Positions 7,183 to 44,773 of a stretch of DNA of 64,000 nt are shown here, one piece after another. Within the stretch, counting starts at the first letter, position 1; each line of letters starts with the position of its first letter. Position numbers and translations under genes: made by a program. Source of the DNA: Pectobacterium araliae (lineage in GTDB: Bacteria > Pseudomonadota > Gammaproteobacteria > Enterobacterales > Enterobacteriaceae); the NCBI RefSeq assembly GCF_037076465.1, contig NZ_AP028908.1:806001-870000 (forward strand), in the 5' to 3' direction. The notes under the pieces were generated by a model, which saw only the letters and a list, made by a program, of their open reading frames with translations, had not been told where the DNA came from and made no database searches.

Positions 7183-9312
7183 ATGGCTGGAAGTCCTACA
7201 CCTGCCGCTGGGCTTAGTCCGTTGCGCGATGAACTGATTCTCCACGCCGGGCCAGCTAACCGCGACGGATCGCCCAGTTGGACGCTGGAAGATCCGCTGC
7301 GCGGCCTCTATTTTCGTATCGGCTGGGCAGAAATGGCGATGCTATCGCGCTGGTCGATGGAGAATGCCGCGCAGATCGTCGCCGAGGTTAACCAAACTTC
7401 TGCGTTGACGCTGGATGACAGCGATGTGCAGTATTTCAACCGCTTTTTGCAGGCTAACAGCCTGACGCGGGTTTCCGGCGATGAGGCGCTGGCGCAGTTT
7501 ACTCGTCAGGTGGAACAGTCGCGTGTCTCGATTTGGCGCAAGCTACTAAAGAACTATCTGTTTTTCCGCATTCCCTTATGGCATCCAGATCGCTTTCTGG
7601 GCGCGACGCTGCCGTGGATTAAGCCCTTTTTCAGTCCTATTTTTCTCAAATTGACGCTGCTGGTGGCCGTGTTGGGGCTCTTCCTCGCCGGACGCCAGTG
7701 GGAAACCTTCAAACATACTTTTCTGCATTTCTTCACGCTGGAAGGGGCGGCGCTGGCAGGTCTGACGCTGTGCTTTACTAAGATTTTGCATGAGTTCGGT
7801 CACGCCTACACCTGCAAGCGTTTTGGTGCGCGGGTCGCCACCATGGGCGTCGCGTTTCTGGTGATGATGCCAGTGCTGTACACCGATACGTCCGGTTCGT
7901 GGAAGCTCACCCGCCGCCGACAGCGGATGGCGATTGGTGCAGCGGGTATGATGACCGAACTGGCGTTGGCGGCATGGGCAACGCTGGCATGGAGCTTCTT
8001 GCCGGACGGCATGCTGCGCAGTGCTGCGTTTATGCTGGCGACGACAACCTGGATCATGACGCTGGCGATTAACCTCAGCCCGTTGATGCGCTTCGACGGC
8101 TATTTCCTGCTTTCTGATGGGCTACAGGTGCCAAATCTGCAAAATCGAGGCTTTGCTATCGGACGTTGGCAGATGCGGGAATGGCTGTTCGGTTTGGGCG
8201 ATGCGCCGCCGGAGCACTTTCCCCGTTGGCTACAACGCACGCTGGTGGGTTATGCCTTTGCGGTGTGGATATACCGTTTCTTTCTGTTTACCGGTATCGC
8301 GATTCTGGTTTACCACATGGCGTTCAAGTTATTAGGAATGCTGCTTTTCGCGATTGAAATCGGCTACTTCGTGGTGATGCCCGTGGTGAATGAAGTACGC
8401 GAATGGAGTAAACGCCGTAAGGATTACCGTATGAACCGTAACATGACGACAACGCTGGCCGTAAGCGCCGTGGTTCTGCTTTTGCTGATAATTCCCTGGC
8501 AGCGCAGTGTGTACGCACCGGCGCTGCTGCGGGCGGAACAGCAAAGCAGCCTGTATATGCCCGTACCTGCGATGATTCAGCGCATTGAGGTGGAGGTCGG
8601 TCAGCCTGTGCACGCCGGGCAGACGCTGTTTACGCTGTCGTCTGACGCATTGGTGCATGAACGGCAACAGCTTGAACGCCAGATTGCCACATTGAGCTGG
8701 CAAAGCACGTTTCAGGTATTCAACAAAGAAGCCGCGGGCGATCACCAACGGGTGAAGCAGGAGCACGACGCGGCGCTACAAAAGTTGCAGGTATTGCAGC
8801 GCCAGTCTGAACAACTGACGGTGCGTGCGCCGATAGACGGTGTAGTGGCCGATATGGCAACACCGCTGGATACGGGCGAATGGCTGGGGCAGGGCGAATG
8901 GCTGGCGGTGGTGACCAAACCAACCGGCGGACTGGTAGAAGCCTTTGTGTCGGAGAAAGACTGGCAGCGGCTCAGCACGGGCACAAAAGGCACGTTTTAT
9001 TTACAGGATGTCAGTCGTTCGTCGCTGCCGCTCACGATTGTGGAAATCGCCAGTACGGCGACCCGCGATCTGAATGCGGCACCAGAGCTTGCCTCGGTGT
9101 ATGGTGGTGATATTGCCACGCTGAGTGATTCACAGCGCAAGCTGCACCCTGAGCAGGCCGTGTATCGTGTATTGCTCAGCTTGCCTGCCGATTATCGTGC
9201 TCAGCCGCAAGTGCTGCGCGGCACGGTGGTGATGGATGGTGAGGCGCAAAGCTTGTTGATTCGCGGCTGGAAAGTGGTGTCTGCTGTGCTGATCCGCGAG
9301 CTGTCATTCTGA
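7183..9312 (+). CDS. M50 (site-2-protease-like) membrane metalloprotease fused to HlyD adaptor
   Basis: The 709-residue polytopic membrane protein has a full M50 zinc site: HEFGH at residues 203-207 and NLSPLMRFDG at 297-306, whose Asp is the usual third ligand. Several membrane helices surround these motifs (about 155-290 and 365-405). After a further membrane segment near 425-440 a periplasmic HlyD-like part follows, with YMPVPAMIQRIEVEVGQPV and VRAPIDGVVADMATPL as the lipoyl halves and a coiled coil between. Such M50-HlyD fusions are annotated as putative peptide zinc metalloproteases linked to export. Here it replaces the ABC or RND pump expected beside TolC and HlyD genes, so it may act as the inner-membrane gate or process the cargo. 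That role is inferred. Confidence 0.85.
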   Translation: MAGSPTPAAGLSPLRDELILHAGPANRDGSPSWTLEDPLRGLYFRIGWAEMAMLSRWSMENAAQIVAEVNQTSALTLDDSDVQYFNRFLQANSLTRVSGDEALAQFTRQVEQSRVSIWRKLLKNYLFFRIPLWHPDRFLGATLPWIKPFFSPIFLKLTLLVAVLGLFLAGRQWETFKHTFLHFFTLEGAALAGLTLCFTKILHEFGHAYTCKRFGARVATMGVAFLVMMPVLYTDTSGSWKLTRRRQRMAIGAAGMMTELALAAWATLAWSFLPDGMLRSAAFMLATTTWIMTLAINLSPLMRFDGYFLLSDGLQVPNLQNRGFAIGRWQMREWLFGLGDAPPEHFPRWLQRTLVGYAFAVWIYRFFLFTGIAILVYHMAFKLLGMLLFAIEIGYFVVMPVVNEVREWSKRRKDYRMNRNMTTTLAVSAVVLLLLIIPWQRSVYAPALLRAEQQSSLYMPVPAMIQRIEVEVGQPVHAGQTLFTLSSDALVHERQQLERQIATLSWQSTFQVFNKEAAGDHQRVKQEHDAALQKLQVLQRQSEQLTVRAPIDGVVADMATPLDTGEWLGQGEWLAVVTKPTGGLVEAFVSEKDWQRLSTGTKGTFYLQDVSRSSLPLTIVEIASTATRDLNAAPELASVYGGDIATLSDSQRKLHPEQAVYRVLLSLPADYRAQPQVLRGTVVMDGEAQSLLIRGWKVVSAVLIRELSF

Positions 9313-9640: not shown

Positions 9641-11356
9641 GTGAAGCGATCTGTCTTGTTGTTGGTGGGAGCCATGCTGGCACCCTATGGCTATAGTGCG
9701 CAGGATAATGCCGTGTCGTTATCCGTTTCGGGTTTGAATACCGTGCTGGATAATGGCTTGCTGAAAGTCACATTCGGTGAGGATGGCAGTGCGGTGAGCA
9801 TGGTGACGGGGGGTAAAAATATTGTCACCAACCTGTCCGGTGCGGCGCGTGACCCGAGCAAAACCCGTAGTGCTTACCTCGACTATTACGTTAAAGGCGT
9901 CAAAGATTTTGTCCCCGAGCGCGTAGAGGTGCTGCGCAACGATCGTGAGATGGCGCATGTGGCCTATATTGACGATCGCGGCGGACTGCTAAAGCTCGAA
10001 TACCACTTGATTATGCGGCGCGGCGTGAGTGGGCTTTATAGCTATGTGGTGGCCGAAAATAGCGGAAGTCAGAATGTTAACGTCAGTGAACTGCGCAACG
10101 TTTATCGCTTCGATCCTGCGCGGTTAGACCACCTCTACAGCGGTGTTCGTCAGGGCAAACCGCTGCTTTATCGTCAGCTTGAGGCTTCGCCAAAGGTGCA
10201 GGATGAAACCTGGAGATTGCCGGATGGCAGCATCTATTCCAAATATGATTTCGCTGGCTACATGCGTGCCGCGCCTTTCTGGGGCGTTTTCGGTAACGGT
10301 GTCGGCGCGTGGCTGATTCACGGCAATCGGGAATATTTCTCCGGCGATGCGCTCAAGCAGGATTTACTGGTGCATCAGGATGCGATCATTCTGAACTATA
10401 TGACAGGTTCACACTTTGGCACGCCGGATATGAAAGCCCCGCCGGGCTGGAAAAAATTCTACGGGCCGTGGCTGCTGTACATTAACCAAGGCGATACCGA
10501 GCAAATGCTGGCGGATGCACAGCGTCAGGCGCTGACGGAAACGGTCAACTGGCCATACAAGTGGGTGGATGATGCTCGCTATGCGCTCAAGCGCACACAG
10601 GTGAGCGGACGCGTTGCCAGCCAGCAGCCCGTCACCGTCGTGCTTTCATCGTCATTGGATGAGCCGTTTGATGTGCAAACCCGTGGTTATTCGTATCAGG
10701 CAACGACAGACTCGCAGGGACATTTTACGATCCCATACGTCCGTCCGGGTAATTACCATCTGGCGGTATACGCTAATAGCGGTACGCAGCCGGGGATTTT
10801 GGCAGAGCAAACATTATCCGTTTCCGGTGATAAGCAAGCGCTGCCAGTGATAACGCTGCCTAAAGCTGAACCCATTGTCTGGGCGATTGGACAGGCAAAT
10901 CGGCAGGCGAGCGAATTCCGTTTTGGTCATGAGGCACGTAACACCCGCTGGCAGCATGAGGTTCCGGCAACTCTGACGTTTGATATTGGCCGCAGCGACT
11001 ATCAGCGTGACTGGTATTATGCGCAGACCAAACTGGGAAAATGGGATATCCGTTTTGTTTTACGGCCGGAGAAGAAAACCTATTTCCTCAACATCGCGCT
11101 GGCGGCGACCAGTAACAGCGGCATGAGTGAACCGACCACACCGCAACTGGCGGTAATAGTAAACGGCAGGACGTTGGAAACGCTGACTTACGAGAACGAT
11201 AAAGCCATCTATCGTGGCGCGCTACAGAGTGGTCGCTATCACGTTGCTCGTATCCCCGTATCATCCGGTTTCCTAAAAAACGGTAACAACACCATCACAC
11301 TGCAATTAAAAGGCGGCAGTGTGATGTATGACGTGGTGACGTTAAGCGAAGAATAA
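9641..11356 (+). CDS. rhiE: Rhamnogalacturonan lyase (polysaccharide lyase family 4), secreted
   Basis: The 571-residue length and overall sequence match the RhiE type of soft-rot bacteria. It cleaves the rhamnose-galacturonate backbone of pectin type I by beta-elimination. A signal peptide (residues 1-20, ending GYSA) shows export; in Dickeya the homologue leaves the cell through the Out type II system. The N-terminal beta-sandwich catalytic domain begins VLDNGLLKVTFGEDGSAVS. A fibronectin-like middle domain is near 315-410 (GHFTIPYVRPGNYHLAVYA) and a carbohydrate-binding-like C-terminal domain runs from about 415 (PIVWAIGQANRQASEFRFG). The start is GTG with a ribosome site (agagggc) upstream. 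It is transcribed alone, converging on the next gene. No other pectinase gene lies beside it. Confidence 0.9.
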   Translation: MKRSVLLLVGAMLAPYGYSAQDNAVSLSVSGLNTVLDNGLLKVTFGEDGSAVSMVTGGKNIVTNLSGAARDPSKTRSAYLDYYVKGVKDFVPERVEVLRNDREMAHVAYIDDRGGLLKLEYHLIMRRGVSGLYSYVVAENSGSQNVNVSELRNVYRFDPARLDHLYSGVRQGKPLLYRQLEASPKVQDETWRLPDGSIYSKYDFAGYMRAAPFWGVFGNGVGAWLIHGNREYFSGDALKQDLLVHQDAIILNYMTGSHFGTPDMKAPPGWKKFYGPWLLYINQGDTEQMLADAQRQALTETVNWPYKWVDDARYALKRTQVSGRVASQQPVTVVLSSSLDEPFDVQTRGYSYQATTDSQGHFTIPYVRPGNYHLAVYANSGTQPGILAEQTLSVSGDKQALPVITLPKAEPIVWAIGQANRQASEFRFGHEARNTRWQHEVPATLTFDIGRSDYQRDWYYAQTKLGKWDIRFVLRPEKKTYFLNIALAATSNSGMSEPTTPQLAVIVNGRTLETLTYENDKAIYRGALQSGRYHVARIPVSSGFLKNGNNTITLQLKGGSVMYDVVTLSEE

Positions 11357-37764: not shown

Positions 37765-38343
37765 AGGCATCCAATCATTGACGTCGTATTGCTGTGTTAG
37801 TTTGACGCGAGCTCACACTTTGGCAGCCTGTCGGCATCTGATTCGTCTTTCAGCTCAACGCTAGTTTGTATACTTTGTTTACGACTAATCGTCACTGAAT
37901 CTAGCCGGACTATTTCGGACAATCACAGACACAAAAAAGCCCGCGCTGGGGGAAGTTGAATTTATTGCCTATAATTTTGATTAGATGGTTTATTCCTGAT
38001 TCAATTTTTGTTTTATGGGCCTAAGTGTGGGCCTAAATATTTTTTGCTGGATTAAAGTGGAAACTGTGGGACTCATTTGTGACATGAGTGGCAAAAAGAT
38101 TTTCAACCGAGGAATCGAATTATGTGTTTTATAGCCATATTGATGTGCTCTCCATAGATTAACACAATACCTGCTTCTCGTACTCAGTTGCCAGCAAAAG
38201 TTCCATCTGGCGGCTATGAGCGAGGGGGGGGATTAGTATTAATCAGCCACCTAAAAAATGACTATCTTAGCTGTGGCAATTCAACTGACTGGAAAAAACC
38301 CTCTGCTGAAGAGGGCTATTTTTGATATAGGCTTGTTATTATC
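37765..38343. other. Intergenic region holding a possible island boundary
   Basis: In 579 bases I see no gene. The notable item is a 17-base stretch at 37928-37944 that recurs in the ssrA terminator. A tandem repeat of gggcctaa (about 38017-38035) follows. Composition turns AT-rich from here rightwards. Confidence 0.45.
37928..37944. repeat. 17-base direct repeat, left copy (candidate att site)
   Basis: The sequence gacacaaaaaagcccgc is identical to 44338-44354, where it forms one arm and the T-run of the ssrA terminator. Here the partner arm is missing, so this copy is not a working terminator. This fits either a recombination scar or chance reuse of a common terminator motif. Confidence 0.45.
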
Positions 38344-38580
38344 TCACTTAATTCCAAGTGAATCGAGCTGGCTTTTCAAGCCTTCTAACTTAATCAAGCT
38401 TTGAATCAGCATATCTCTAGCACAAGAAATACAGTAGTAAGATTCACCTTGCGTTGGGTTCTTTACACTCAACCTGAATTCACCTTTGGTAATTACGTGC
38501 TTTTTGTCGTGTTTACAGGCAGTTTTTCTAGAAGCAACCTCAAACTTAGCACCAACAATAAGAGACTTGAATTTAGCCAT
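38344..38580 (-). CDS. Small zinc-finger-like protein paired with a helicase
   Basis: The 78-residue basic protein has a Cys/His arrangement that could hold one zinc ion: CKHDKKH at residues 22-28 and CISCARDM near 50-57. The spacing recalls PARP-type or treble-clef fingers, but I cannot assign a family. Its ATG overlaps the last codons of the helicase gene by eight bases, so the two are translated together and probably work together. Low GC content sets both apart from the chromosome. A nucleic-acid sensing or helicase-loading role is inference only. Confidence 0.65.
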   Translation of the reverse strand: MAKFKSLIVGAKFEVASRKTACKHDKKHVITKGEFRLSVKNPTQGESYYCISCARDMLIQSLIKLEGLKSQLDSLGIK

Positions 38581-40351
38581 TAGACCATTCCTGCCTTATG
38601 TCTTCAGCTAAGTTGGGAATTGCCGATTTAGCTTCTTCAACCTGTTCTAAACTTAAATTTTCTCTATCACCGCTATTACAACCTATGTGCTCATTAACGA
38701 GATTATGGAGTTCTCTTACAGCCCAAGCATAGTTATCTTGAGACTTATTAAAATTTCTACCTTTTGTCTTAAATCCAAGCTGGTTAATGAGTAACCCCGC
38801 ATGATGATTAACAAGATCGTTAATAGCCTGTCTTCCTGCTCTTCTCTGGTCTTGCTTACTCAACCTAGATTTGCGTAAAATCTCTATGGCTTCATTCGTT
38901 GTCATACCTAAAGCTGCAAGTTCATTTTTGAGCTCCTGAAAATCCCCAATTGGATCTAATTCGGAAGCTATTACACCATCAGTGCTAGTAATCTCTACAG
39001 GAATAAGCCTGTTGTATCCTCCAGTTTCATCAGGATCTCTGTCACTTGTTCCATCAGAACCAAAAGATACATCTTCAACTTCTGGTAGCAAGTCAGCGAA
39101 GAAATCCTGGTCAGCTTGGCTGAAATTCCTAAAGTCACTCCACCTATTGGCAATATTTGCACCAACATGAAAAACAACCACACCTCTATTAACTGAATCT
39201 CCAGGGGCGTTCTGTTTTACGACACGCATAACTCGACCAACAAACTGAACAAATGGACTTAGATTAGAAAAAATGCTACCGACCATAGCCACGGATAAGA
39301 ATCTATGGTCGAAACCTTCACCAAGCATTTTGGATTGAATTATTACATCCAATTCATGATTTTCTAATTTAGAGAAAACCTTATCATTAACCGAACCATC
39401 TTCATTAGAGTGTACGTAATCAGCACGTAAATTTCTGGCAAGGAATGCTTCTTTTATCTGGATGCAATGTCCATAATTAATAGCGGATGCAATTATTTTT
39501 AATCGTTTCTCTCCAGACTCTTGTCGCAGTCTGTTTAGCTCCTTGATAGAAAGATCAACCAATGTACTAAGAGTCTCATCAGACATGAGAACACCACGTC
39601 TGAATGATGCTTCTTCTTCACCTAAACGCTTAATTTCATCAGGGCTTGCTAAGGTTATTTCAGTACCATCGCTATTAACATAAACTAATTTTGATGGACT
39701 AATCATTTTTGCATGAAGTCTTTTTATATAACCCTCCCTGATTGCTTCAACAACAGGAAAACTATATATAATCTCTCCACTCATCAATTGACCGTCACTC
39801 CTCATAGGCGTAGCACTGTAGTTTACTACTTTAGCCCTTGGGAATTTTTCCTTAACCTTAATCCATGTGTTTTCTTTATTATGATGGGCTTCATCAACAA
39901 TAATAAAATCAAAGAAATCGGCATCTAATTGCTCTAACCACTTATTATCATCACCAGCTATTTGTTGAATATTTGAAACGACAATATCACTAGATCTTAT
40001 GTCATGGATATTAGTCTTGCCGCCAGATTCAATTATACAGACCTCTGGGTAATCATCCACCGAATCAAAAAAATCACATTTATTGTAAAAGTTATCAGGT
40101 TCACTAAATTTCATATCTTTAGCCAACTGATCTCTTATCTTTTTGCCAGGGGCAATTATAAGAACTCGACTAGATTCTGTTGCATATGGAGTGATTGATA
40201 TCAAACCAGACTTTCCGCAACCAACAGGAAGTATTATCCCAATCTCATTCAAACTTTTATTTTCGTAGTGTTCTCTTATCTTACCGAAAGCCTCAATCTG
40301 TGGCCTTCTTAATTTACTTTTTGCTGTAATATCTTTTTTTTTAAATGGCAC
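38573..40351 (-). CDS. DEAD/DEAH-box superfamily 2 helicase, possible defence protein
   Basis: The 592-residue protein has the SF2 motifs in order: Q-like RPQIEAF (16-22), Walker A GCGKS (44-48), DEAH (153-156), SAT (179-181) and motif VI QFVGRVMR (369-376). This core resembles type III restriction Res subunits and SSL2/RAD25-type helicases. The last 170 residues (from about 425) have a helical, charged domain (ILRKSRLSKQDQRRAGRQAI) that I do not recognise, and no nuclease motif is seen. It is the upstream gene of a two-gene unit with the small zinc-finger-like gene, in an AT-rich island. Such island helicases are often anti-phage; that is inference. Confidence 0.88.
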   Translation of the reverse strand: MPFKKKDITAKSKLRRPQIEAFGKIREHYENKSLNEIGIILPVGCGKSGLISITPYATESSRVLIIAPGKKIRDQLAKDMKFSEPDNFYNKCDFFDSVDDYPEVCIIESGGKTNIHDIRSSDIVVSNIQQIAGDDNKWLEQLDADFFDFIIVDEAHHNKENTWIKVKEKFPRAKVVNYSATPMRSDGQLMSGEIIYSFPVVEAIREGYIKRLHAKMISPSKLVYVNSDGTEITLASPDEIKRLGEEEASFRRGVLMSDETLSTLVDLSIKELNRLRQESGEKRLKIIASAINYGHCIQIKEAFLARNLRADYVHSNEDGSVNDKVFSKLENHELDVIIQSKMLGEGFDHRFLSVAMVGSIFSNLSPFVQFVGRVMRVVKQNAPGDSVNRGVVVFHVGANIANRWSDFRNFSQADQDFFADLLPEVEDVSFGSDGTSDRDPDETGGYNRLIPVEITSTDGVIASELDPIGDFQELKNELAALGMTTNEAIEILRKSRLSKQDQRRAGRQAINDLVNHHAGLLINQLGFKTKGRNFNKSQDNYAWAVRELHNLVNEHIGCNSGDRENLSLEQVEEAKSAIPNLAEDIRQEWSNG

Positions 40352-41096
40352 TTTAATTTTCCTTTTTTATTGGTAGATCGACTATTACCCATGTCTAACC
40401 ATGGCTCCTGAATTCAATAGTTTTAATCATCTACATATCTTCTGCTACCTTACTCTTTCTCCCAATTCGATCTCTAACTGATTAGATGTAAGATGATCGA
40501 ATTGTCTAACAATATGAAAAAAGACGATTTTTACAAATTTTTATTAGTCCACTTAGCAATAATTTTAGCCAGACCACTCACTTCATTTCATCCAGAAGTG
40601 TGGAGAAGTACATGTTGTAGACGCTGACACACTCGTAGCAAGCTTACAGTCACGGATCACACAAACGGTGGCCCTGACGGATGACATGCTACGACTACTT
40701 GCGTGTTTTATCGAACAGAGTGCATTCTCACGCGATCCTATCCGCTTCTGGCACATAGCCGCCTGCTGGATTAGATTGCGCTCAGATCAGCAAAAGAGCC
40801 AGATCGAGCATGGGTCAGTGCACGCCGATTTATTCAACGACGCTCTACAGCGCTTTCCCATAAACCCGCTCCACATACCGTCCATCACCATGTCCTAAAT
40901 TCATCGACACCGGAGTACTCGCTTCCTGATTTTTGGAATTCTGTCACCAGTAACAACGCATCGGATACTGCGACCAAACATAATGCAGTATATGTGGTGA
41001 GTATTGCCCCTTTAGCTGCCCAGTGTCGTTTGTGAATATCTGCGATTTAGCGTGTTTTTCTGATAATACTAACAACTATAGATTGTTTTCCTACCT
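40352..41096. other. Non-coding stretch with decayed genes
   Basis: Apart from the integrase remnant (40845-40943, minus), I see only a 76-codon plus-strand frame starting at a GTG (40668-40898; MALTDDMLRLLACFIEQSAF) with no known family and partly antisense to that remnant. It could extend upstream without a start codon, so it may be a fragment. The helicase promoter lies at the left edge. A possible extended -10 (tgataatac, 41061-41069) lies near the right edge. Confidence 0.4.
40845..40943 (-). pseudogene. C-terminal remnant of a tyrosine recombinase
   Basis: A 33-codon minus-strand frame ends STPVSMNLGHGDGRYVERVY and then GKAL before a TAG stop. The LGH motif and the Tyr a dozen residues later match the end of the catalytic domain of phage-type integrases. 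A stop codon (40944-40946) closes the frame upstream, so only the tail remains. It is unrelated to the intact integrase of this island and points to an earlier, decayed element. Confidence 0.5.
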
Positions 41097-41532
41097 CTCG
41101 CCTCATCACGTCGCCCCATGTTCTCGTCCCATGGTATAGGGCGAACGGATGAGGCGAGAACATGGGGCGAAAGAGCGTGGTCGTTTTACGACCATGAGCC
41201 GGAAAGTATACTTTCCGGCACGAACGACATGAGCCAGTTCATGCGGGCTGAACGCCCTAATTGCCTGGCTCATGGGGGTAATGTCGCGGCTGGACGCCAC
41301 GCCAAAACCCCCAAGGTCAACGGCGGCACACCGTCACGCGCGACCAACCCCTTTAAGACGCGCGTTTTAGCCTGTTATTTCGCTTCCTCGCAGGCTCGGT
41401 GCGGAATAACGGGAAACGCAGCTTTAAATGGGTTGGTCGCGCCACGCTACCGGCTTATGGCCGGAGACTTAGCGGCGACGGTGTGCGGGGCTAACGCCCC
41501 CCAAATAAACCGACGCGTGGGCGCGTCTTTTT
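41097..41532 (+). ncRNA. Large structured RNA candidate with terminator
   Basis: About 435 bases consist almost wholly of stems. These are: two competing 5' hairpins (41097-41107/41148-41158 and 41111-41126/41155-41170); 41178-41183/41189-41194; a 22-base palindrome at 41198-41219; 41228-41237/41265-41274; 41273-41279/41307-41313; a junction closed by 41326-41335/41477-41486; and 41487-41491/41496-41500. Inside the junction a long arm pairs 41338-41350 with 41430-41442, 41352-41356 with 41424-41428, 41362-41367 with 41414-41419 and 41371-41383 with 41401-41413. A second arm pairs 41450-41454 with 41460-41464. The last 13-bp stem needs two G-U pairs valid only in plus-strand RNA, and the array ends in a plus-strand terminator. 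No known RNA family is recognised. Confidence 0.7.
41512..41532 (+). terminator. Intrinsic terminator of the structured RNA
   Basis: Stem GACGCG (41512-41517) with CGCGTC (41522-41527), loop of four bases, then TTTTT (41528-41532). It sets the direction and the 3' end of the RNA candidate. Confidence 0.8.
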
Positions 41533-41864
41533 GCTCGCTGGGGCGGCAAAATTTATTCGGCTCCCCCCGACCAGCTCGGTTCACTTGGGGTGAACGCTCG
41601 CCAGTGGGCTCGGGCGACGCAAATTAACAATTTCTGCGAAATTGAATTTACTCGCCTTACGCCACTTTTTAATCCATGCCGGATGCATGAATTAAAAAGC
41701 CTAAAGTCGTTACGTTCTGTGCGAGCCTACCCAGATACTACTCAACTTTTTCGTGTGGGATGATTGTATTTACTATGCGGTGAGTTCTTTTATTACATAC
41801 AACAAAGAGCCTGCCGTTATATGCAGCAGAACGGCAGGGTAATCTTCGCGATTGCTATCATCCT
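41533..41864. other. Further hairpins downstream of the structured RNA
   Basis: No gene is seen in these 332 bases. Hairpins continue: GTTCAC/GTGAAC (41579-41584/41590-41595), CAATTTC/GAAATTG (41628-41634/41638-41644) and a 9-bp stem CTTTTTAAT (41665-41673/41691-41699) enclosing CATGC/GCATG (41675-41679/41685-41689). The A/T-rich ends of the last one make it a possible two-way terminator. Confidence 0.5.
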
Positions 41865-42110
41865 CTAATCTGAAATTCCATTTCTGTATTTCCTGTGCTG
41901 CCCATCGTTATACCGCGAAGGCCAGATCTCTTCAGGACGTCTATGCAAGGCTTCGGCAATTAAACGTTCTCCTTTAGGCCAATGTCGTGTTAGTGCGTTT
42001 GCCAGTGTGGATGATGCGAGTCCCGCCTCTCTGGAAACCGCTGCCAGCGTTGTACCTCTTTTTCTTAAACCAGCGATGATATCTGCTGGATGCCAGTCTT
42101 GTTCAATCAT
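41865..42110 (-). CDS. Ner/Nlp-family phage-type DNA-binding regulator
   Basis: The 81-residue protein begins MIEQDWHPADIIAGLRKRGT and continues TLAAVSREAGLASSTLANAL and TRHWPKGERLIAEALHRRPE, followed by EIWPSRY. This is the classic Ner domain of phage Mu and the bacterial Nlp/SfsB proteins, with a lambda-repressor-like helix-turn-helix at about residues 22-42. Ner proteins repress early phage or transposon genes. It is divergent from the first HTH gene, with 154 bases between that contain CTAAAG operator-like repeats, so it may take part in a small switch with the two HTH proteins. Confidence 0.85.
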   Translation of the reverse strand: MIEQDWHPADIIAGLRKRGTTLAAVSREAGLASSTLANALTRHWPKGERLIAEALHRRPEEIWPSRYNDGQHRKYRNGISD

Positions 42111-42187
42111 CGGAAGTTACCCACGGTTATAGCTTATAGATAGAGCCAGAGAAGAATTCTCTTCTGGTCTGCCTGTGCTTGCTTCTT

Positions 42188-42230
42188 CTTTAGTAACTCT
42201 AAAGATAATGAATCTTAAGGAATGCTAAAG
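42188..42230. promoter_or_regulatory. Operator array upstream of the first HTH gene
   Basis: CTTTAG (42188-42193) and CTAAAG (42199-42204) form an inverted repeat with a five-base spacer. Another CTAAAG lies at 42225-42230, 35 bases before the start. The same array with the same spacings recurs before the second HTH gene, which marks it as a functional site, probably for autoregulation. Confidence 0.7.
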
Positions 42231-42264
42231 ATGCTGTCAACTTAGTCATCAGTGGCAGATCCTT

Positions 42265-42546
42265 ATGATCCCTGAACGTCTTAAAAATGCGAGGCTACGG
42301 GCTAATCTGACGCAAGAGCAGCTTGGCGTATTAGCTGGCATTGGAGAAGAGACGGCCTATTCTCGTCTCTCACAGTATGAGAGTGGAACGCATACGCCCT
42401 CGTTTAAAACGGTTTGTGCTTTTGCGCACGCATTGAACGTGCCGGAGAGCTATTTCTACACGGTGGACGATGACTTTGCCGAGGCGCTTCTGAAGTTGTA
42501 TGCCGGTGATACCGTTCAGTGGCAACGCACACCAAATGGCAGATAA
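42265..42546 (+). CDS. XRE-family HTH regulator, copy 1
   Basis: The 93-residue protein is little more than a lambda-repressor-like helix-turn-helix domain: RLKNARLRANLTQEQLGVLA then YSRLSQYESGTHTPSFKTVC (about 5-55). The second part holds the recognition helix. A short acidic tail follows (DDDFAEALLKLYAG). It is about 70 percent identical by eye to the protein encoded 107 bases downstream (42654-42920), so the two arose by tandem duplication. It resembles controller proteins of phages and restriction systems, but no modification enzyme gene is nearby. Own operator array upstream. Confidence 0.85.
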   Translation: MIPERLKNARLRANLTQEQLGVLAGIGEETAYSRLSQYESGTHTPSFKTVCAFAHALNVPESYFYTVDDDFAEALLKLYAGDTVQWQRTPNGR

Positions 42547-42575: not shown

Positions 42576-42618
42576 CTTTATAAACTCTAAAGAAAATTCA
42601 TATTGAGGAATGCTAAAG
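42576..42618. promoter_or_regulatory. Operator array upstream of the second HTH gene
   Basis: CTTTAT (42576-42581), CTAAAG (42587-42592) and CTAAAG (42613-42618) repeat the positions of the first array exactly (offsets 0, 11 and 37), ending 35 bases before the start. One base of the first half-site differs (T for G). Confidence 0.7.
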
Positions 42619-42653
42619 ATTACCGCAATACATCAACTGCCGGTAATAACTGA

Positions 42654-42920
42654 ATGATTCCTAAGCGTTTGAAGGCAGCCAGATTAAGAGCGAATCTCAC
42701 GCAGGAGAAGCTTGGTGTACTGGCTGGTATCGAAGAGGCGACCGCCTATTCACGGCTGTCTCATTATGAAAATGGCACGCATAAACCCACGTTTGAACTC
42801 GTCTGCGAATTTGCCCGTGTGCTCAATGTACCGGAGTGCTACTTTTACATTGTTGACGATGAGTTTGCGGAAGATGTGCTGAATTTGTACCTTGATCGAG
42901 TTCGTCGCAAAGAAAAATAA
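42654..42920 (+). CDS. XRE-family HTH regulator, copy 2
   Basis: The 88-residue paralogue of the upstream regulator shares MIPxRLKxARLRANLTQEKL and LGVLAGIEEATAYSRLSHYE. Differences concentrate in the last third, where the tail turns basic (YLDRVRRKEK) instead of acidic-neutral. The recognition-helix region differs by a few residues (SHYENGTHKPTFELV against SQYESGTHTPSFKTV), so both may bind the same operators with different strength. It converges on the integrase gene, separated by an 18-bp inverted repeat. Confidence 0.85.
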   Translation: MIPKRLKAARLRANLTQEKLGVLAGIEEATAYSRLSHYENGTHKPTFELVCEFARVLNVPECYFYIVDDEFAEDVLNLYLDRVRRKEK

Positions 42921-42988: not shown

Positions 42989-44230
42989 TCACCCAATCGC
43001 CTTCAGTCCTCGGATTCCGCCTTCCAGCACACTGCCATTATCCGCCGCTTTCACAAAGTCAGCCCACCATTGCATCATGGGGCGGCGTTGTTCAAGGTAG
43101 TCGCTGCGATTATAGGCTCGGCGTACTTCATTCTTATCCACATGGGCGAGGGCGGCTTCGATAACATCGGGCGGAAAGCCTTGCTCATTGAGAGCAGTGC
43201 TGGCGATTGAGCGCATTCCGTGTGATACCAGAATGCCGCCCAAGCCAGCACGTTTTAGTGCGGCATTGACTGTCTGACTATTCATTGGCTGTAACGGCTT
43301 AATACGGCTGGGAAACACATATTCCCGATGGCTGCTTAAAGGCCGCATAAGTTCCAGAATAGCTAATGCCTGTTCTGAAAGTGGAACGATATGTATCCGC
43401 TTCATTTTCATGCGTTCTGCTGGAATACGCCATTCTCTAGCGTCCAGATCGATCTCTTGCCAGCGTGTATCGGACGCTTCAGCAGGACGGGTAAGGGGGA
43501 GGAGTTGCCACATGAACAGACAGCGGGTTGGTAACTCGATATTTGCCAGCCGCATCGTTTGCATCAGTTGCGGTAGTTGATCCGGTCGGATGCTGGGCAT
43601 GTGTTTTTTCTGCGGTTTCTCGAATGCTTTGCTGATGTTGACGCTGGGAGCTGCATCGATCAAACCAACGTTCATGGCATAGATCATCACCTCATTAATC
43701 CGCTGACATAAGCGCCTTACTGTTTCCAGTGCGCCTCTGGCTTGTACAGGTTGGATAGCATGCACCAAGGTACGTGCTTTAATGTCTGTAATACTCATTT
43801 CACCGATGGCAGGAAAGATATCCTTTTCGAGTGAGCGCCAAATATCTGAGGCATAGTCAGCGGTGATGCTGCTCTTTTTTAACTGTAGCCATTGTTCAGC
43901 AACGATCTTAAAGGTGTTAGATTTGGCTTCTAGTGCTTGCTTACGCAGGGAATGTTGGTGTTCGTAAGGATCGATATCTTTTGTCAGAAGGGTTCGAGCT
44001 TCGCGGCGACGTTGCCGGGCATCGGCTAAGGTGACTTCGGGATAAGGGCCAAACGTAAGTTTGGCTCGTTTTTGGGTGAAAGGGCGAAAATAGCGGTATT
44101 GCCAGACTTTCTTACCGTTGGTTTTGATCAGCAGTTGCAGGCCATCACCATCATGTAGCGTGTAATCTACTTCTTTAGGCTTGGCGGTTTTTATCTCTGT
44201 ATCCGTGAGCGGTTTTGTCAGACGAGCCAT
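42989..44230 (-). CDS. Tyrosine-type integrase of the ssrA island (CP4-57/SlpA type)
   Basis: The 413-residue site-specific recombinase has three parts. An N-terminal DUF4102 arm-binding domain (LTDTEIKTAKPKEVDYTLHD, GDGLQLLIKTNGKKVWQYRY) comes first. A core-binding domain (about 105-190) follows. The catalytic domain has Arg in LTRPAEASDTRWQEIDL, the HxxR box SHGMRSIASTAL, and His plus Tyr in ALAHVDKNEVRRAYNRSDYL. It is intact. It starts 181 bases from the 3' end of tmRNA and reads away from it, as in CP4-57. It should integrate and excise the island at ssrA. Five GGTACC sites lie just upstream of its start. Confidence 0.93.
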   Translation of the reverse strand: MARLTKPLTDTEIKTAKPKEVDYTLHDGDGLQLLIKTNGKKVWQYRYFRPFTQKRAKLTFGPYPEVTLADARQRRREARTLLTKDIDPYEHQHSLRKQALEAKSNTFKIVAEQWLQLKKSSITADYASDIWRSLEKDIFPAIGEMSITDIKARTLVHAIQPVQARGALETVRRLCQRINEVMIYAMNVGLIDAAPSVNISKAFEKPQKKHMPSIRPDQLPQLMQTMRLANIELPTRCLFMWQLLPLTRPAEASDTRWQEIDLDAREWRIPAERMKMKRIHIVPLSEQALAILELMRPLSSHREYVFPSRIKPLQPMNSQTVNAALKRAGLGGILVSHGMRSIASTALNEQGFPPDVIEAALAHVDKNEVRRAYNRSDYLEQRRPMMQWWADFVKAADNGSVLEGGIRGLKAIG

Positions 44231-44410: not shown

Positions 44411-44773
44411 TGGTGGAGCTGGGGGGATTTGAACCCCCGTCCGGAACCACTCTACCGTCGGTACTACATGCTTAGTCTATCTTTACATTCGCTTGCCAGC
44501 TGCGAATAGACACGCCACTAACAAACTAGCCTGATTAGATTTAGTGCTTCAACCCCAGGCAAGGCATCCACACGATCTCTTTTGGGTTTGACCTCTCTTG
44601 ATCCCCGTCCTAAGAGCGGAGGCTAGGGAGAGAGGGCTATAAGCAGGTTATTAAGCTGCTAAAGCGTAGTTTTCGTCGTTTGCGACTATTTTTTTGCGGC
44701 TTTTTACGAGGCAAACCGCCCCTCGGCATGCACCTTGGGCTTTGCAAATCCCGTCGAATCCAGAATCAGCCCC
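44411..44773 (-). ncRNA. ssrA: Transfer-messenger RNA
   Basis: The 363-base RNA begins GGGGCTGATTCTGG (complement of 44760-44773) and ends in an encoded CCA at 44411, with the T-arm and acceptor GGTTCAAATCCCCCCAGCTC before it. The tag frame (44654-44683) starts with GCA and encodes ANDENYALAA, followed by two TAA stops (44648-44653), identical to the E. coli tag. It rescues stalled ribosomes with SmpB, whose gene lies just upstream on the same strand. The 3' end is a common integration target and is used here. Confidence 0.98.

Follow-up and report, generated by a model that had tools for sequence, protein, structure and literature searches.

The island at ssrA

The window, a stretch of 64,000 nucleotides of Pectobacterium araliae DNA, carries at ssrA an island of 6.5 kb between two att copies. 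It comprises an integrase gene, three regulator genes, a helicase gene with a small neighbouring ORF and a structured element of about 600 bp, to which the present analysis is devoted. The features are listed below with their coordinates in the window.

37945-37960, plus strand: displaced att core at the left island end, a repeat of the right att
38344-38580, minus strand: ORF of 78 aa without family match in the protein-family scan
38573-40351, minus strand: ResIII-type helicase (Pfam scan), cargo
41097-41705, plus strand: whole oriT-like element of about 600 bp (68 aligned homologues; opposite to mobC at 63 of 63 loci)
41097-41223: left hairpin zone, letters variable and pairing retained in the alignment
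41224-41568: conserved core, containing most of the 177 near-invariant columns
41326-41337: 5′ arm of the outer stem, pairing with 41475-41486
41334-41349, minus strand: nic-like motif with 2 mismatches in 16 to CloDF13 (motif match)
41338-41442: inner inverted repeat hairpin with arms 41338-41356 and 41424-41442, candidate nic region
41430-41442, plus strand: second nic-like motif, on the other arm of the inner repeat (motif match)
41475-41486: 3′ arm of the outer stem, pairing with 41326-41337
41512-41532, plus strand: terminator-like hairpin and T run, conserved and covarying
41566-41705: right hairpin zone, letters variable and pairing retained in the alignment
41865-42110, minus strand: Ner-like HTH_35 regulator (Pfam PF13693, E 1.7e-33)
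42265-42546, plus strand: controller-protein-like HTH regulator 1 (family match)
42654-42920, plus strand: controller-protein-like HTH regulator 2 (family match)
42989-44230, minus strand: tyrosine integrase (family match)
44418-44433, plus strand: att core within the 3′ end of ssrA, right island end, a repeat of the left att

The two att copies are imperfect repeats (14 of 16 positions alike). Both are also present at two related loci (L028 and L031), and the left copy at a third (L180). Operator-like boxes are repeated upstream of both controller-like genes (42187-42232 and about 42585-42630), and the two controller-like products look like the result of a duplication. Neither mobB nor mobC was matched by tblastn in the 64-kb window at E 1e-5, and the eight island ORFs scanned gave no Pfam match to relaxase, coupling or mating-pair families. 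Genes for a relaxase, a coupling protein or secretion were thus not detected in the island, and we predict that it belongs to the mobilizable islands that have only an oriT (iOriT).

Fold and anatomy of the structured element

A sequence-only reading of the window had proposed a large folded RNA at 41097-41532. All stems it described are indeed present. The outer stem 41326-41335/41477-41486 is complementary at all of its 10 nt, the arms of the inner repeat (41338-41356/41424-41442) are complementary at 95% of 19 nt, and two overlapping arm pairs lie inside 41096-41170. Compared to dinucleotide shuffles, the region 41097-41532 reached z-scores of −11.2 on the plus strand and −9.6 on the minus strand when folded as RNA, and of −11.9 and −11.8, respectively, when folded as DNA. 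The proposed extent was right in that this region is structured and too short in that the conserved structured element continues to about 41705.

For the alignment, BLASTN matches below 150 bits were ignored, seven pieces shorter than 400 bases were dropped and 22 loci were excluded as duplicates, whereby the copies of G013, G014 and L087 are wholly absent. Eighty-nine copies were aligned, 68 of which were kept (at least 380 bases, less than 96% identity), and columns missing from the window were removed. Columns are termed near-invariant if they are at least 97% identical among the 61 homologues that do not belong to the orphan class described below. Across the 68 homologues the most constant parts include the outer stem (41326-41337/41475-41486) and the arms of the inner repeat.

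The terminator-like stem-loop was also found as described, with a hairpin at 41512-41527 followed by a T run, and it is conserved among the homologues. A plain oriT role leaves this covarying plus strand hairpin unexplained. The inner, nic-like hairpin is deleted near-precisely in three genomes (L184:8741-8990, G023:C1:2904211-2904480 and G368:C11:4009-4232), the deletions spanning 41345-41444, 41345-41474 and about 41340-41435 in window coordinates. Such deletions are compatible with DNA hairpins.

Tests for a gene or a known RNA family

The open reading frame 41118-41627 had been regarded as a by-product of the stems and not as a gene. In agreement with this, the frame is open in only one of the 68 homologues, namely the window itself, and changes are evenly spread over codon positions 1, 2 and 3 (652, 689 and 667). 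A protein-coding gene at this position was rejected on both grounds. The absence of a known RNA family was likewise borne out by Rfam, which gave no match in the region at gathering scores; its sole match in the 64-kb window at these scores is the neighbouring tmRNA (44411-44773). With E up to 5, nine matches in or near the region were obtained, all under gathering scores. GOLLD, ROOL and other known RNA families were therefore rejected, as nothing credible appeared in the region at either gathering or permissive thresholds.

Distribution of homologues and position relative to mobB and mobC

The BLASTN search suggested by the sequence-only reading revealed plentiful homologues in enterobacterial chromosomes and plasmids. 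The element was detected in 313 of 5426 E. coli genomes, in 22 of the 25 genomes of its own genus and in 277 of 72,556 plasmids, 188 of which are typed as conjugative. No match was obtained among 50,697 phage records, and a phage origin was rejected for this reason.

Five annotated loci were opened, one on an E. coli chromosome and four on plasmids, and at all of them the element lies directly upstream of mobB, which is followed by mobC. VirB-type genes are located on its other side at four of these loci, and the stretch of the fifth (L022) stops at a topoisomerase gene. The relaxase type is MOBC for three of the four annotated plasmids. GTDB genomes were scanned for MobC by means of an alignment of 11 MobC proteins, and 68 loci were obtained. 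The element is present at 63 of them (55 with and 8 without mobB), including L066, where 60 bases of it at the end of a contig were accepted, and it is oriented opposite to mobC throughout.

In the E. coli locus L023, virB11 begins at 9764, the element occupies 8001-8560 and mobB extends up to 7979. The element thus falls, as judged by position only, in the 1.8-kb virB11-mobB gap, the interval used as oriT by others. The virB11 gene of L091 is 100% identical to that of L023, and the window element shows 76.9% identity over 58% of the query to the element of L023 with its virB11-oriT-mobB layout. The original experiments are reportedly those of Lin 2008, Schubert 2004 and Nunez and de la Cruz 2001. 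According to the part of the source available to us, a virB11-mobB fragment of ICEKp1 of 1760 bp worked as oriT on a marker plasmid (PMC6761156). The proven transfer origin of ICEKp1 lies in a region of 300-500 bp that also occurs in islands of K. pneumoniae, one group of which is described, in the portion of the paper accessible here, as lacking any conjugation gene (PMC4891358).

Compensatory changes and wobble pairs

Covariation of the stems had been proposed as a check, and strong compensatory change was found across the 68 homologues. For pairs derived from the alignment, 176 double changes kept Watson-Crick pairing, compared to 12.6 ± 3.7 in simulations preserving the changes of each column. 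In the left zone 39 such changes were counted vs. 4.2 expected, and in the right zone 58 vs. 3.4. Both partners changed on the same branch in 241 cases, while partners slid by 1-6 columns gave 74-130. Since this main set of pairs was predicted from the same alignment on which it was tested, which favours that set, the tests were repeated with pairs from a fold of the window alone. Again, double changes (136 vs. 11.5 ± 3.5) and same-branch changes (219 vs. 84-128 for slid partners) were clearly in excess. A phylogeny-aware covariation scan of all pairs with the same null gave one significant pair, 41513/41526 (E 0.037 at a cut-off of 0.05). Perhaps recombination between oriT copies inflated the tail of the null and caused this weak outcome; the structure-specific tests were used alongside the scan.

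A working plus strand RNA is expected to tolerate G-T changes in its pairs and not A-C changes. Both kinds were counted relative to the null for the element and, as a control, for tmRNA. The control comprised 30 sequences, i.e. the 30 loci returned from 59 genomes searched, with the own locus counted once. The ratios are given below, G-T before A-C.

Element core, alignment-derived pairs: 0.70 and 0.74
Element core, window-only pairs: 0.71 and 0.87
Left zone: 0.99 and 1.02
Right zone: 0.77 and 0.85
Whole element, window-only fold: 0.91 and 0.98
tmRNA, Rfam structure: 0.94 and 0.47
tmRNA, alignment-derived structure: 0.93 and 0.54
tmRNA, strand-common pairs of the alignment-derived structure: 0.99 and 0.55
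tmRNA, antisense-strand fold: 0.89 and 0.66
tmRNA, window-only fold, strand-common pairs: 1.21 and 1.20
tmRNA, window-only fold, all sense pairs: 1.17 and 1.05

The window-only fold of tmRNA lacked the expected asymmetry, so that the control was redone with the Rfam structure; according to this, the wobble test depends on good structures. The tolerance of G-U on the transcribed strand that is seen in tmRNA was not found in the element. Mismatches are depleted as well, to 0.65-0.84 of the null depending on the zone. As the core disfavours both wobbles while tmRNA tolerates G-U but not A-C, the constraint looks like one at the DNA level. On balance it sits on DNA, which would either be read on both strands or act through hairpins formed by one or the other strand. 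Some of the double changes could additionally stem from template switching in palindromes. Two G-U pairs in one stem had been taken to require transcription of the plus strand. This argument fails because the minus strand folds about equally well and the homologues show no preference of G-U over A-C.

nic-like motifs in the inner repeat

The inner repeat bears on each strand a motif resembling a stretch of CloDF13, which we take to be the CloDF13 nic site and which sits upstream of the MobB match of CloDF13. The motif is weak on its own, with two matches in the window vs. 0.49 expected, a number reached in 11 of 100 shuffles. The MobC query gave no tblastn match in CloDF13, where only MobB was matched, and by blastn no DNA similarity between CloDF13 and the element was seen outside the short motif. 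Two nic sites within inverted repeat 2 are reported for pMET1 in the section of the paper at hand (PMC2262945). By analogy, this layout would agree with putative nic motifs on both arms of the inner repeat.

Orphan copies and candidate helpers

Copies of the element fall into three tiers: those with mobB and mobC (A), those with mobC only (B) and those standing alone (C, orphans), such as the one in the window. A tree was built from the 64 copies longer than 540 bases. In this tree the 7 orphans form one supported clade and the 9 B copies another, both nested among A copies. The constraint on orphans was determined from 11 sequences, i.e. the 7 contained in the 68 and 4 more. They show 0.085 changes per column at near-invariant columns vs. 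0.555 elsewhere, compared to 0.077 vs. 0.618 for 11 A copies and 0.073 vs. 0.393 for the 9 B copies. Thus, orphan oriTs are as constrained as helper oriTs.

An orphan copy is present in at least 9 of the 25 Pectobacterium genomes; six of these nine have a full-length or near-full-length match to MobC and three are without full-length MobC. Orphans were also found in four genomes of three other genera. Between the window and L180, a locus of another genus, the oriT is 96.9% identical and four compared island genes are 86-91% identical, while four chromosomal neighbours are 74-79% identical. As island and oriT are far more alike than the neighbouring chromosomal genes, the island has passed from one genus to another.

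The genome to which the window belongs contains a candidate helper, L027, with oriT-mobB-mobC together with virB5, 6, 8, 9, 10 and 11; with the cut query used for VirB3/4 no match was obtained at this locus. A second locus (L026) has the arrangement oriT-mobC. Identity between the window oriT and the L027 oriT is about 79%, so that L027 is no more than a putative match for the island. In the tree L080 is closest to the orphan clade, and judging from the sequences the orphan chassis may have descended from an L080-like ICE.

Further arrangements were observed at single loci. At L031:6319-7927 (genome G010) an orphan oriT is split by an insert of about 1.6 kb, which contains two ORFs that look transposase-like by eye, and the oriT pieces overlap by 4 bases. 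At L034/L038 a distance of 8-9 kb separates a copy of the oriT-only kind from one with mobC, an arrangement that resembles a tandem stack of islands.

Cargo and regulators of the orphan islands

The flanks were readable at 14 orphan loci, and a selection of the ORFs at these loci was compared to PADLOC; a fifteenth locus, L032, stops before the cargo. Phage-defence matches above 100 bits were obtained near the orphan oriT at 11 of the 14 loci, which is a tally without control islands and no measure of enrichment, island ends being fixed for the ssrA islands only. The systems comprise retrons (L028, L031), Gabija (L029), IetAS (L030), PDC-S19 (L033, L181), type I restriction-modification (L182, L183), HEC-03B (L184), ThsB of Thoeris together with SoFic (L185) and SoFic (L038). 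No match above 100 bits was found in the chosen ORFs of the remaining three loci, namely the window, L034 and L180.

The only cargo seen in the window island is the ResIII helicase with the small ORF downstream of it (38344-40351), and these two genes are a candidate for an unrecognised defence system. Beside a sister oriT, at L038:10014-11300, lies the gene of a distantly similar helicase (30% identity). At L180:9573-11393 a cargo protein of 606 aa is encoded, for which neither Pfam nor PADLOC gave a match at E 0.001.

The regulators are more uniform than the cargo. An HTH_35 gene is located beside the oriT at all 14 orphan loci and the controller pair is present at 11 of them, the exceptions being L034, L182 and L183. 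All 11 controller-bearing islands have repeated boxes upstream of both controller genes. Among the 68 MobC loci, matches to these island regulators were found at five. At the Symbiopectobacterium locus L080, which has oriT-mobB-mobC, pieces of this HTH_35 gene lie beside the oriT (L080:2286-2511 and 8590-9310). The idea that the island regulators have an operator in common with the helper found no support: a pattern built from the boxes preceding the controller genes was absent from L026, L027, L186 and L187. Since most sister islands lack it too, the pattern is too narrow for a decision.

Discussion

The sequence-only reading was correct in recognizing a conserved, covarying, non-coding structure within a mobile island. 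Its assignment of this structure to RNA was not supported, as in MOBC-type conjugative elements the homologues are found where the oriT lies, and the pair changes are nearly strand-symmetric. We conclude from the sequence comparisons, with a probability of roughly 0.88, that the element is an oriT of the MOBC type and that the island is an oriT-only mobilizable island, predicted to be moved in trans by a MOBC helper.

In such a model, the arrival or activation of a helper would lead the integrase to excise the island as a circle. On this circle the MobC relaxase of the helper, together with the coupling protein MobB, would then bind the array of hairpins and set a nick within the inner inverted repeat (41338-41442) or close to it. 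One of the strands would leave through the VirB channel of the helper and be recircularised, and the integrase of the island would re-integrate the transferred copy at ssrA in the recipient. The hairpins would act as DNA, in an extruded or single-stranded oriT, and position the relaxosome, while the controller-like and Ner-like regulators may time excision. A wider idea can be offered only tentatively and is rather doubtful as a whole: MOBC relaxosomes may recognise oriT as a folded DNA object, a hairpin array of about 600 bp in which, across the diversity of enterobacteria, pairing is retained more than letters in the flanks and a central hairpin can be nicked in two ways. A lineage of tiny islands with a controller circuit of its own might have captured this object as a chassis that ferries exchangeable phage-defence cassettes between genera on helper ICEs.

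Four other explanations have to be weighed. Promoter or priming sites for the single-stranded stage are known from other plasmids as ssi sites and Frpo. The hairpins might likewise be of use mainly once the DNA has been transferred and is single-stranded, be it as a single-strand promoter or in priming of the second strand, beside or instead of a nic function. The large structured flank zones, which retain pairing despite varying letters, would suit such a role, but both strands are constrained to about the same degree, and we regard this explanation as unlikely. About as unlikely is a purely mutational origin, in which template switching in DNA palindromes maintains the pairing without selection on structure. 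Many double changes indeed lack a visible wobble step and three genomes have lost the inner hairpin, yet the depletion of mismatches (0.65-0.84 of the null) and the conservation of the letters of the core speak against it.

The two remaining explanations appear highly improbable. A decaying relic, i.e. a piece of an ICE left after the loss of transfer genes and without a present role, would be expected to occur as scattered losses, but the orphans are a single clade, retain helper-like constraint and include the same island in another genus with an oriT 96.9% identical. What speaks for a relic are the broken copies (interrupted in L031, without inner hairpin in L184) and the three orphan-bearing genomes without full-length MobC. 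A structured plus strand RNA of about 430 nt ending in a terminator, with a function of its own or as an aid to mobilisation like the sgm-sRNA of SGI1, is at odds with the G-T changes, which are disfavoured in the core (0.70-0.71 of the null) but tolerated in tmRNA (0.94); moreover, the minus strand folds about equally and Rfam has no family at gathering scores. The strong plus strand fold and the conserved terminator-like hairpin would agree with such an RNA, as would the requirement of SGI1 for a self-encoded sRNA near its oriT, as described in the part of the source available (PMC9299015).

An oriT used in trans has to be compared to known systems. As judged from descriptions, the closest are the oriTs of ICEKp1, ICEEc1 (the HPI of ECOR31) and pMET1, which are of the MOBC type with a CloDF13-like mobB-mobC layout and share with the window element the virB11-mobB position, the inverted repeats and candidate nic-like motifs in the inner repeat. 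Unlike these, the window copy has no adjoining mobB, mobC or virB and belongs to a separate orphan clade. GIE492 and other asn-tDNA islands of K. pneumoniae are, so far as the consulted portions describe them, likewise oriT-only islands with a tyrosine integrase and without transfer genes. By description they differ in size (23 kb for GIE492 vs. 6.5 kb) and in their site (asn-tDNA vs. ssrA), and in the window island no microcin cluster is seen but Ner-like and controller-like regulators and variable cargo. In the available part of a review of IMEs, GIE492 is listed as a relaxase-less IME with ICEKp1 as the proposed helper (PMC5704250). The iOriT mode of transfer is set out in a review of hitchers, of which a part was at hand (PMC11389934), and by analogy the proposed transfer of the window island would follow this mode.

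The MGIVflInd1 family, known for its mimicry of the SXT oriT, also consists of relaxase-less islands with an oriT related to that of a helper ICE and works alike, as far as its accessible description goes. It differs by its SXT/R391 helper, the MobH relaxase and the site yicC, so that the window island is likened to it by mode and not by membership of the family. SGI1 is likewise a mobilizable island with a special region near its oriT, but has MpsA/MpsB, IncA/IncC helpers and an sRNA according to the part of PMC9299015 used here, while the window element shows no RNA-like pair changes. GOLLD, ROOL and other large RNAs are similar in size, elaborate fold and mobile-element setting. The window element differs from them by the lack of an Rfam match at gathering scores, by nearly strand-symmetric changes and by the oriT position of its relatives. 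Further comparison was made with the available portions of papers on EARL islands (PMC6035254), ICEs of plant pathogens (PMC9373382), GIE492 in a later study (PMC11020217) and MobB of CloDF13 (PMC7431656). In the open literature searched, a scope that leaves out subscription papers, no description was found of the ssrA lineage, of its regulators or of a DNA-versus-RNA test of this oriT. The kind of island is already known from GIE492 and ICEKp1, and the window island is a new lineage of it.

The analysis removes a candidate for a new RNA family and puts a testable model of transfer in its place. It also provides a simple test that separates structured DNA sites from structured RNAs, in which the G-T changes of covarying stems are weighed against their A-C changes and tmRNA serves as the control. 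The alignment points to the oriT hairpins that should be mutated first, so that what the two possible nic sites do can be tested directly. Relaxase-less oriT islands, hitherto proposed in K. pneumoniae, are extended to one lineage in Pectobacterium and three other sampled genera, and this lineage often adjoins phage-defence genes.
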